A DNA stretch of 64,000 nucleotides from Chloroflexus sp. Y-396-1 (GTDB taxonomy: Bacteria > Chloroflexota > Chloroflexia > Chloroflexales > Chloroflexaceae): contig NZ_KI911784.1 of NCBI RefSeq assembly GCF_000516515.1, positions 1,240,001 through 1,304,000 of the forward strand, read 5' to 3'. This document shows positions 55,239 through 61,723 of the stretch, in pieces. Made by a program: the position numbers and the translations under genes. Every line of letters starts with the position of its first letter. Within the stretch, counting starts at the first letter, position 1. The notes under the pieces are model-generated. The model had not been told where the DNA came from. It worked only from the letters and a program-made list of their open reading frames with translations, and did not search any database.

Positions 55239-55582
55239 TGACAGTGGCGCGGCATAGTGGGTTCCGGGCGCATTATGCCCAATGCGGGCCGGAGGCCCAC
55301 GCTACAGGGTTCGTTGCCCAACGCGGGCCGGAGGCCCGCACGCCCAGGGTTCGTTGCCCAACGCGGGCCGGAGGCCCACGCTACAGGGTTCGTTGCCTAA
55401 CGCGGGCCGGAGGCCCGCACGCCCAGGGTTCGTTGCCCAGCGCGGGCCGGAGGCCCGCACGCCCAGGGTTCGTTGCCCAACGCGGGCCGGAGGCCCGCGC
55501 TCCCAGGTGACATTGGCACGGCATAGTGGGTTCTGGGCGCATTATGCACAATGCGGGCCAGCGGCCCGCGCTCCCAGGTGAC
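55239..55582. repeat. Tandem ~40-bp palindromic units flanked by direct repeats
   Basis: GCGGGCC-n3-GGCCCRC units start at 55284, 55323, 55363, 55402, 55442 and 55482, with one more at 55553. They alternate 39 and 40 bp and share 'cagggttcgttgccc' linkers. The outer blocks 55239-55283 and 55506-55552 are a direct repeat (ggtgaca-tggc-cggcatagtggg...gcgcattatgc). Related to the 38-bp array near 50.2 kb by its palindrome but with different linkers. The rest of 54903-55639 holds no recognised gene. Confidence 0.85.
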
Positions 55583-58621: not shown

Positions 58622-59006
58622 GAGCGTGATCAAAAACCCGGGCTTTTGCTAAGTCTCGACCATGACAGCGCCAGAATGGTCAGGGAAACAGTGGCGGGCA
58701 ACGCATGCGTTTCCGCGACGCGCTGGAACAGGGTTGCAACGGTTTCAGCACCTGATCTGCGAAGCACGCCTGACGCTCCTCACCTTCCCCCTGGCCCCCT
58801 TCCTCTCCCTGTGTGAGAGAGGAAGGGGGAACGTGGGGCGCGGGGTGAACGTCGCTCACCCAACCCGTCACGTGCAGCGCCTGACGCTGCCCGCTCGGCA
58901 GCGGGAACGTGCGGCGGATGGAGGAACAGAATATTGGTCTCCCAACGCAGTGGTTGCCCGGGCACAGTACGTTCCCAATAAGAAATCCGGGTTTCTGATC
59001 ACCCTC
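58622..59006. mobile_element. 385-bp MITE with GAGCGTGATCA ends
   Basis: Left end GAGCGTGATCAAAAACCCGG and right end GGGTTTCTGATCACCCTC are imperfect inverted repeats, flanked by TAA on both sides (58619-58621; 59007-59009). The interior contains a palindrome at 58795-58829 (CCCCCTTCCTCTC / GAGAGGAAGGGGG) and no coding capacity. Other members: 30530-31549 (expanded) and about 49890-50089 (decayed). The GAG start and TNA duplication resemble the IS5-family element here, so a related transposase may move it. Confidence 0.8.
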
Positions 59007-59099: not shown

Positions 59100-61070
59100 A
59101 TGGAGCATGTTGACACTCTTCTCACCGGCGGCACCGTTGTGACGATGGATGCAGAGTGGCGAATTTTTGCCAACGGCGCTGTCGCGATCCGTGATGGTGT
59201 GATTGTAGCTGTGGGACCCGCAAGCGAACTGAACGAGCGTTACACCGCGACCGAGACGATTGATTGTCGTAATTGTGCGATTATTCCTGGCCTGATCAAT
59301 GGCCACGCCCATGTCCCGATGAGTCTTTTGCGCGGTCTGGTTGCCGATCAACAACTTGATGTCTGGCTCTTCGGCTACATGTTTCCGGTAGAGAGTCAAT
59401 TCGTTGATGCCGAGTTTAGCTTTACCGGTACGCTTTTGAGCTGCGCCGAGATGATCCGTGGCGGAACAACCACGTTCGTCGATATGTACTACTTCGAGGA
59501 AGAAGTAGCACGAGCAGCCGATCAGGCCGGAATGCGGGCAATCTGCGGGCAAACAGTGATGCGACTACCAACCCCCGATGCCGATTCGTTCGACGCCGGG
59601 ATCGAGCGTGCCCGACGCTTCATGACCGAGTGGCGCGGCCATCCGCGCATTATCGCTACGGTCGCCCCGCATGCCCCCTATACCTGCACCGATGACATCT
59701 ACCGACAGGCGGCTGCTCTTTGTGCCGAGTTTGGCGTTCCGCTGATTACCCATCTGTCTGAAACAGCACGGGAAGTCGAAGAGAGTATTCGCGACCGCGA
59801 AGTAACACCTATCCGTTACGCCAAACGAGTCGGTGCGTTTGATGTTCCGTGTATCGCCGCCCACTGCGTCCACGCAACCGAAGACGATCTGCGACTCTTG
59901 CGCGAAGCTCGTGCTGGCGCCGTGCCCTGCCCGACCAGTAATCTCAAATTGGCCAGCGGTGTCGCTCCTTTCCGCCGTATGATCGAGACGGGTGTACGGG
60001 TTGGGCTCGGTACCGATGGACCGGCAAGCAATGACGATCAGGATATGTTTACCGAGATTCAGTTGGCGGCGCTGCTCCCCAAGGGCCTCAGTGGCGATCC
60101 AACCGCCGTCCCGGCCCGTGAGGCATTCGCCCTCGCCACCTGCTGGGGGGCACGGGCCATTCATCTCGATCACCTGATCGGGTCGCTGGAAGTGGGCAAA
60201 CGTGCCGATATTGTCGTAGTTGAACTGGATCGACTACACAGCGCACCACGCTACACCTACGCCCCAGATGCAATCTATTCCCATCTCGTATACAGCAGTC
60301 GGGCCGCCGATGTCCGTGATGTGTTGGTAGATGGCAAACTGTTACTCCGCGATCGCCACTTACTGACCGTTGATGAGGACGAGATTATTGATCGCGCCCA
60401 GGCTATTGCTACGCGCATTAACGAATTCCTTGCAACGCGCGAACGGAACCTACTCGCCAAGATTCTGGCCCTGGGTGGTGTCCAACAGGCCGAAATCTTT
60501 GAGATTCAGGTCAAAGCCCGTCTTGATCCAGGAGAGGTTGAACGGGTTCTAGCCCTTCTCAACCATCCGGCTATCACAGTGACCAAGACCAGCGAGCGGA
60601 CGCAGTACGATACCTACTTTATCTTTGCCAATGGCGAGCGCATTCGGATCCGTGAAGATCATCGTACCGATCCAGGAGCACGACCGCAGCCCAAATACAC
60701 GCTCACGCTGATGGCCGAAGCGCGCCGCTTCGATCATCCTAAAGCAATGATGCTCTCACGCGCACGTTATACTGCTCCGGCAGACCACACTGTGCGCTTC
60801 TACCGCGAGTATTTTCAACCCGACCGCATTGAAGAGTTGGAAAAGCGACGACGACGCTGGCGTATCCTCTACCGTGATCATGATTTTGCGATCAACCTTG
60901 ATACCCTGGTCGGTCAGGCTGATAGCGGGCAATTCCTCGAAATCAAGAGTCGGACCTGGAGCCGTCGCGATGCCGAGCAGCGGGCGCAGTTGATCAGCGA
61001 ATTACTCGAATTGGCCGGCATCACCGATGATGCACTGATATTGCAAGAGTATGTGGAGCTTGTATCATGA
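59100..61070 (+). CDS. Amidohydrolase (TRZ/ATZ/SsnA type) fused to a CYTH-like domain
   Basis: 656 residues from ATG 59100 (AAGGAGG 5 bases upstream; an ATG 30 bp earlier has no such site). Residues 1-440 form a metal-dependent deaminase: INGHAHVPMS, VAPHAPYTC, ITHLSETAREVEES, AAHCVHATEDD, GLGTDGPASNDDQDM, as in S-adenosylhomocysteine/methylthioadenosine deaminases and chlorohydrolases. Residues about 465-656 form a CYTH-like triphosphate tunnel domain: FEIQVKARLD (an ExQxK form of ExExK), ANGERIRIREDH, KYTLTLMAEAR, FLEIKSRTWSRRDAEQ. I know no standard enzyme with this fusion. Its stop overlaps coaE (ATGA), so translation is coupled. Confidence 0.82.
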   Translation: MEHVDTLLTGGTVVTMDAEWRIFANGAVAIRDGVIVAVGPASELNERYTATETIDCRNCAIIPGLINGHAHVPMSLLRGLVADQQLDVWLFGYMFPVESQFVDAEFSFTGTLLSCAEMIRGGTTTFVDMYYFEEEVARAADQAGMRAICGQTVMRLPTPDADSFDAGIERARRFMTEWRGHPRIIATVAPHAPYTCTDDIYRQAAALCAEFGVPLITHLSETAREVEESIRDREVTPIRYAKRVGAFDVPCIAAHCVHATEDDLRLLREARAGAVPCPTSNLKLASGVAPFRRMIETGVRVGLGTDGPASNDDQDMFTEIQLAALLPKGLSGDPTAVPAREAFALATCWGARAIHLDHLIGSLEVGKRADIVVVELDRLHSAPRYTYAPDAIYSHLVYSSRAADVRDVLVDGKLLLRDRHLLTVDEDEIIDRAQAIATRINEFLATRERNLLAKILALGGVQQAEIFEIQVKARLDPGEVERVLALLNHPAITVTKTSERTQYDTYFIFANGERIRIREDHRTDPGARPQPKYTLTLMAEARRFDHPKAMMLSRARYTAPADHTVRFYREYFQPDRIEELEKRRRRWRILYRDHDFAINLDTLVGQADSGQFLEIKSRTWSRRDAEQRAQLISELLELAGITDDALILQEYVELVS

Positions 61071-61723
61071 AACATCCTGGCATCTTCTTGATCGGTCTGA
61101 CCGGAGGTATTGCCTGTGGTAAGAGTACGGTTCTGGCAATGCTGGCCGCACTAGGTGCGCGCACAATTGACGCCGATCGGGTCACACATCGCCTGCAACA
61201 GCCGGGCACACCGGTTTATCAGGCGATTGTCGAGGCTTTTGGGCCAAACATCTTGAGTACGCCCGGTGGAGCCATTGATCGTCGCAAGCTCGGTAATATC
61301 GTCTTCAACGATCCGGCGGCGCTCAAGCGGCTAGAGGCAATCATCCATCCTGCGGTACGGGCCGAGATCAGGCAGTTTCTGGCTGAAGTAGCGAACGCTG
61401 GTGGATACGCGACTCGTCTACGCCCGGTGGAGCGACCGGTGGTGGTGATCGATGCGATTAAGCTCATCGAGTCGGGATGGGCCGACGAGTGCGATCAGGT
61501 GTGGGTCGTTACCTGCTCACCTGAACAGCAGATCGAGCGTTTGATGACGACTCGTGGCATGTCGCTGGCCGAGGCCCAGGCCCGTATCGCAGCTCAACCT
61601 CCTCAAGAAAGTCGGCTGAGTCGGGCCGATGTCATCATCGACAATAGCGGTTCACAGGCCAATACCCGCGCCCAGGTTGAAGCGGCTTGGCAGCAGGCCC
61701 TGCTCGCCAGTCACGGGCGATAG
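61067..61723 (+). CDS. coaE: Dephospho-CoA kinase
   Basis: 218 residues. P-loop GLTGGIACGKSTVLAML, then ARTIDADRVTHRLQQPG and the IHPAVRAEIRQFL lid region are characteristic. It phosphorylates the 3'-OH of the ribose of dephospho-CoA, the last step of CoA synthesis. The start overlaps the amidohydrolase stop by 4 bases (ATGA). Its 3' end overlaps the convergent penicillin-binding protein gene by 13 bp, leaving no space for an intergenic terminator. Confidence 0.95.
   Translation: MKHPGIFLIGLTGGIACGKSTVLAMLAALGARTIDADRVTHRLQQPGTPVYQAIVEAFGPNILSTPGGAIDRRKLGNIVFNDPAALKRLEAIIHPAVRAEIRQFLAEVANAGGYATRLRPVERPVVVIDAIKLIESGWADECDQVWVVTCSPEQQIERLMTTRGMSLAEAQARIAAQPPQESRLSRADVIIDNSGSQANTRAQVEAAWQQALLASHGR

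Follow-up and report, generated by a model that had tools for sequence, protein, structure and literature searches.

In Chloroflexus sp. Y-396-1, a deaminase-type amidohydrolase and a C-terminal CYTH (triphosphate-tunnel) domain are encoded as one protein, and the CYTH domain carries two invariant substitutions at positions that alignment assigns to its catalytic metal site. Our preferred reading, to which we give about an even chance, is that the fused CYTH domain is a polyphosphate- or nucleotide-binding module that regulates a working deaminase. The gene lies in a window of 64,000 nucleotides (contig NZ_KI911784.1, positions 1,240,001 to 1,304,000), the whole stretch of DNA that was analysed. 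Its features and the adjoining coaE gene are given in Table 1.

Table 1. Features of the fusion locus, in window coordinates.
Feature	Position	Strand	Evidence and remarks
Fusion gene, deaminase-type amidohydrolase plus CYTH	59100..61070	+	656 aa; alternative ATG 59070 gives 666 aa
Amidohydrolase domain, MTA/SAH/adenosine-deaminase type	59115..60375	+	PF01979 E 7e-71; 4f0r phmmer 2e-94; fold Z 55 to 4dzh/4f0r; conserved residues
Linker helices between domains	60376..60488	+	model helices 426-449 and 451-458, pLDDT ~82-90; conservation
CYTH / triphosphate-tunnel domain	60489..61061	+	family profile matches, model, structure matches, hhalign, conserved residues
coaE, dephospho-CoA kinase	61067..61723	+	PF01121 E 4e-53; TIGR00152 above cut-off; 4-base overlap with the fusion gene

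One gene for two domains

The fusion gene reads as a single intact open reading frame in the window, ending at the stop at 61070. Residue numbers throughout are counted from ATG 59070, which opens the longer frame. ATG 59100 is the likely start of the gene, since the ribosome-binding-like AAGGAGG stands just 5' of it and the alignments with homologues begin at residue 11-12 of the longer frame. The AlphaFold model of the full-length protein has a pLDDT of 91, and the mutual orientation of the two domains is moderately supported in that model (pTM 0.83). Conservation was read from an alignment of 132 rows, in which 124 sequences are distinct and the least similar pair is 42% identical. The linker is conserved in these rows at F453, R457-E458, K464, A467 and G469, with F453, E458 and K464 conserved at ~100%.

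Two repeats were seen upstream. The gap of ~700 bases from a MATE-type transporter gene to the fusion gene holds a perfect 13-base inverted repeat (CCCCCTTCCTCTC / GAGAGGAAGGGGG, 9-base loop) at window positions 58795-58829. An intergenic tandem array at 55276-55507 consists of 5.8 copies of a 40-base GC-rich unit with 90% matches and can also be read as a 79-base dimer; this array is the likely source of spurious open reading frames with repeated RGPEARTPRVRCPTRAGG peptides.

The deaminase half

Residues ~16-435 match Pfam Amidohydro_1, and the nearest solved structures are MTA/SAH/adenosine deaminase homologues, with the fold of the modelled domain matching 4dzh/4f0r over 435-437 residues. 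H79 and H81 (HxH), E108, H201, H228, E231, H265, D316 and S320 are conserved in 130-131 of the 132 rows, the exceptions being gaps in incomplete rows plus one A at H228. By comparison with TM0936, we take HxH 79/81, H201, H228, E231, H265 and D316 to be the metal and catalytic residues and E108 to be of the ribose-binding type. The deaminase half is thus predicted, from its sequence, to keep the complete catalytic set.

None of the NCBIfam equivalog cut-offs for a named deaminase substrate was reached. The top models for this half were PRK09045 (the best, 450.6 bits against a cut-off of 540), PRK06038 and PRK07228 (5'-deoxyadenosine deaminase), all of them below cut-off. Assignment of a substrate from gaps in the host pathways failed, because the same genome already encodes the covering enzymes: SAH hydrolase, adenosine deaminase, two PNP/MTAP-type phosphorylases (one of which reads as an MTA phosphorylase) and an unfused deaminase. 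For the same reason, 5'-deoxyadenosine or MTA is only a candidate for a substrate used under special conditions. The unfused deaminase, of the MTA/SAH type and 39% identical to the fused one, is found at 1591326-1592549 of this genome.

The C-terminal half is a CYTH domain

A Pfam search with the C-terminal part of the Chloroflexus sequence alone gave no match, so automatic annotation may miss the CYTH half. Its NCBIfam match was a weak one to cyaB (TIGR00318, E 5e-6, below cut-off). Across the family, 15 of 29 diverse members matched PF01928 CYTH (best 1.9e-8), and several genomic copies, aligned over positions ~3-173 of 179, scored above the Pfam curated cut-off (one of them with 34.6 bits vs 23.2). 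Sequence searches of the PDB, started from the CYTH profile or from individual members, returned nothing relevant, and structure comparison was therefore used. The AlphaFold model of the CYTH domain alone (pLDDT 90) has the eight-stranded triphosphate-tunnel fold. It matched 2een (PH1819) with a Z of 17.3 over 165 residues and SaTTM with a Z of 15.8, and Foldseek placed it with 7ns9 (SaTTM) at an E of 2e-8. Its fold matches, with Z from 17 to 13, comprise PH1819, SaTTM, CyaB (Z ~16), AtTTM1, ThTPase, AtTTM3 and ygiF. The preliminary description had proposed a complete amidohydrolase joined to a CYTH-like domain. Pfam on the deaminase side agrees with this; searches of the C-terminal part by family profiles, hhalign and structure all returned CYTH, and the domain is confirmed as a true but non-canonical member of the superfamily. 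The outcome that the preliminary description had named as refuting it, a C-terminal part that does not score as CYTH in profile or structure comparison, thus did not occur.

The match to cyaB, the sole NCBIfam match of the CYTH domain in the window, could be read as a sign of a class IV adenylyl cyclase with a deaminase attached, which would make an adenine signal and then deaminate it. The good fold matches to CyaB structures are consistent with it. Class IV cyclases are, however, said to require an HF motif, and they have a small residue for the first Arg of xRxR and Ala for the second Glu of ExE (PMC8233210). The fusion lacks the CyaB HFxxxxExExK motif: positions 472-473 are Q/E and Q, and neither His nor Phe is common there in the 132 rows. 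Furthermore, the first Arg of xRxR is invariant, and the second ExE Glu is replaced by Lys rather than by the cyclase Ala. A cyclase was rejected on these three motif criteria, and we regard it as very improbable.

Two invariant changes in the metal site

In CYTH triphosphatases such as ygiF, SaTTM and ThTPase, the C-terminal ExE serves both metal sites: its first Glu holds metal 1, and its second joins the two Glu of ExExK in holding metal 2, the activator of the attacking water (PMC4641920, PMC8233210). The fusion family has E478-x-Q480-x-K482 (ExQxK) in place of ExExK and E624-I-K626 (ExK) in place of the C-terminal ExE, each in 132/132 rows. E478, Q480, K482, D514, R526, R528, K592, R594, R596, N609, D611, E624, K626, R628 and W630 are identical in every row, with K626 and R628 as extra basic residues; within DxY, D514 is invariant and Y516 is present in 130 of 132 rows. 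The preliminary description had recorded ExQxK correctly but had overlooked the paired change of ExE to ExK, so that its account of the motifs was incomplete.

When aligned by hhalign with canonical CyaB/SaTTM-type CYTHs, ExExK fell on ExQxK and GxFxExE on GxFxExK (95.6%, E 4.6e-9); with a ygiF-type CYTH set the probability was weak (18.5%). A glutamate-shifted alignment to ygiF-type relatives is possible, and FxE fits the CyaB/SaTTM type. Two of the three catalytic metal-2 ligands, as assigned by alignment, are thus gone, while the metal-1 Glu, the basic tunnel and DxY are kept. Since ExQxK and ExK dismantle the metal-2 site, ordinary triphosphate hydrolysis by the fused CYTH is unlikely, and the invariable loss of two of the three residues suggests that the domain senses or binds rather than cuts.

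A separate canonical CYTH in the same genome has ExExK and ExE intact, so the substitutions do not reflect a general trait of the CYTHs of that genome. Purifying selection acts on both domains, with dN/dS of ~0.02-0.12 and dS near saturation. The invariant residues and low dN/dS rule out the decay of a pseudodomain. The change in the tunnel is therefore fixed and selected.

The absence of site 2 is no proof that a CYTH is inactive, because AC-IV cyclases without the second ExE Glu are still active and plant TTM1/2, without both motifs, are reported to be pyrophosphatases (PMC8233210). The main rival to our reading is residual or altered catalysis, as reported for plant TTM1/2: a bifunctional enzyme in which the CYTH domain still works beside the deaminase with changed chemistry, as a single-metal pyrophosphatase/triphosphatase like TTM1/2 or by Vtc4-like phosphotransfer. 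The retained metal-1 Glu, basic tunnel and DxY would suit such an enzyme, as would the precedents of TTM1/2, pyrophosphatases that lack ExExK and ExE but have xRxR and DxY, and of Vtc4, which has site 1 only (PMC8233210, PMC4641920); 7z67 (AtTTM1) and 3g3r/8i6v (Vtc4) are moreover among the fold matches. Invariant Q480 and K626 would however repel, not bind, a catalytic metal, Vtc4 is a weak match (Z 8.7-8.9), and the aromatic position in the W/YxRxR motif of ThTPase and plant TTM1/2 is mostly Arg in the fusion (RxRxR in 110 of 132 rows, W in 2). We consider a bifunctional enzyme rather unlikely.

The fusion is widespread in Chloroflexota

This CYTH type was found in 61 of 301 sampled Chloroflexota genomes, in exactly one copy each, and no stand-alone copy was found in the 301. 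Sixty of the 61 copies were seen fused to the deaminase and colinear with it; the remaining one (L028/L080) is a fragment that ends at a contig end and includes the rear of the deaminase. Fusion in 61 genomes rules out chance or a gene-end artefact. A scan of GTDB contigs confirmed 549 relatives, and the best 80 of these 549 are nearly all from Chloroflexota, with the classes Chloroflexia, Anaerolineae, Thermoflexia and Ardenticatenia among those 80. Every wide locus was confirmed as fused, apart from the contig-end fragment and from L115, for which the same test did not confirm fusion.

Some records carry names from other phyla. The fusion is present in two MAG contigs, L144 and L148, whose names are Deltaproteobacteria and Bdellovibrio; the two copies are 89% identical to each other and ~50% identical to Chloroflexota copies. 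Taking the hosts by contig name, these suggest that the fusion occurs outside Chloroflexota, with transfer out of the phylum as a possible route. In both the fusion adjoins a PpiC-type lipoprotein gene, and in L148 also RCC1-repeat genes. A contig titled Singulisphaera (Planctomycetota; L122) has a fusion 95% identical to Roseiflexaceae copies, followed by coaE, and is probably a misnamed MAG record.

coaE and other neighbours

The coaE ATG at 61067 overlaps the fusion stop by 4 bases (ATGA, 61067-61070). The preliminary description had noted this overlap correctly and had drawn from it a possible tie to CoA synthesis, a suggestion that the wider comparison did not support. coaE lies directly 3' of the fusion in most Chloroflexaceae/Roseiflexaceae-type loci and in those lineages only; in flanks of ~6 kb it was found neither in Herpetosiphon or any Anaerolineae-type lineage tested nor in other lineages. 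Where coaE adjoins, the ATGA overlap is present in 10 of 42 cases. Elsewhere the flanking genes are cinA upstream and glycogen synthase downstream, comEC, lipoate/biotin ligase, ABC binding protein and PpiC. No operon partner kept across the classes was found and the context names no ligand; since no neighbour is conserved, it gives no hint of CoA either.

Functional coupling to CoA synthesis through coaE would account for the overlap in the window and for the adjacency in Chloroflexaceae/Roseiflexaceae-type loci, but not for the fusion carriers whose flanks lack coaE or whose neighbours are cinA, glycogen synthase, comEC, lipoate/biotin ligase or PpiC. It was rejected as lineage-local, and we hold it to be extremely improbable; coaE is probably a neighbour that is only co-transcribed with the fusion.

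In a group of Anaerolineae-type loci (L036, L048, L062 and relatives), the fusion has a CinA N-terminal-type gene on one side and glycogen synthase on the other, and the gaps to both are very short. The CinA-type neighbour in these loci consists of MoCF and CinA_KH, without the deamidase domain.

A proposed binding module coupled to a deaminase

We favour a regulatory binding module because the tunnel's binding half does not vary, the metal site is broken in every member, the linker residues are invariant and the two domains never separate. The protein would comprise two coupled domains. Its front domain is predicted to work as a deaminase, metal-dependent and of the methylthioadenosine / S-adenosylhomocysteine / 5'-deoxyadenosine type. 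The CYTH domain behind it keeps the half of the tunnel that binds substrate, with the basic residues, DxY and the metal-1 Glu. It would bind a small molecule that bears a polyphosphate group (NTP, PPPi, PPi or polyphosphate) but would not hydrolyse it in the usual way, and via the conserved linker helices it could then adjust how active the deaminase is, how it assembles or where it is placed. Salvage of adenosine-type by-products would thereby track the energy or phosphate state of the cell. A more specific version, which we offer tentatively, is that the dismantled tunnel domain is a built-in sensor of polyphosphate metabolites, gating a purine-nucleoside deaminase that recycles SAM by-products.

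The CYTH domain might instead be a purely structural or docking module that serves assembly, stability or partner binding, as in Mediator Med18/Med20, which share the fold and turn up in the structure search. Such a role would be consistent with the surface-type conserved motifs RFYREYF and SRTWSxxDA, which are peculiar to the fusion family, but it would not require the invariant tunnel-facing basic residues and metal-1 Glu. We regard a structural module as improbable.

CYTH proteins are treated as enzymes, and their routine annotation is adenylate cyclase or triphosphatase. Deaminases and CYTH domains are each well known, and the combined architecture is probably listed automatically in databases; in the literature that we searched, no description of a CYTH-deaminase fusion was found. 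If the regulatory reading is true, a sensor-type tunnel gating a deaminase would be a use of CYTH for which the papers found give no description. An old and large family whose catalytic metal site is invariably broken, and whose CYTH is always tied to a deaminase, would offer a clean natural test of the tunnel as a sensor. The analysis also flags a likely risk of mis-annotation as cyaB, and it points to a possible route by which, in Chloroflexota, the salvage of purines or SAM by-products could be linked to the phosphate or energy state.

Comparison with known deaminases and CYTH proteins

With the MTA/SAH deaminases (4f0r, 4dzh, 4gbd/PA, TM0936; PRK09045, PRK06038, PRK07228) the fusion protein shares the entire amidohydrolase domain, the metal ligands and the catalytic residues at 37-38% identity; unlike them, it adds a C-terminal CYTH domain and scores under every equivalog cut-off. 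PH1819 (2een) and the archaeal-type SaTTM (7ns9) share with its CYTH domain the eight-stranded tunnel, the ExExK Lys, DxY, xRxR, the K/R pair, the FxE metal-1 Glu and the C-terminal Tyr, whereas the fusion has invariant ExQxK for ExExK, invariant ExK for ExE and a deaminase in front.

In a survey of CYTH clusters, the partners named are CHAD and phosphoribulokinase only (PMC8233210). The YgiF-type CYTH-CHAD inorganic triphosphatase is likewise a two-domain CYTH protein, but its CYTH is N-terminal, its metal-2 site is intact and its partner is CHAD. The Vtc4 polyphosphate polymerase resembles the fusion in having a tunnel fold with metal site 1 but without site 2, and basic residues replacing the acidic patch (PMC4641920); it differs in being a weak fold match, in belonging to a membrane complex and in lacking a deaminase. 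Plant TTM1/2 (7z67) are also multi-domain CYTH proteins without both acidic motifs and with xRxR and DxY (PMC8233210), but their partner is a P-loop kinase-type domain, they have the aromatic W/YxRxR, and they are confined to plants and Amoebozoa.
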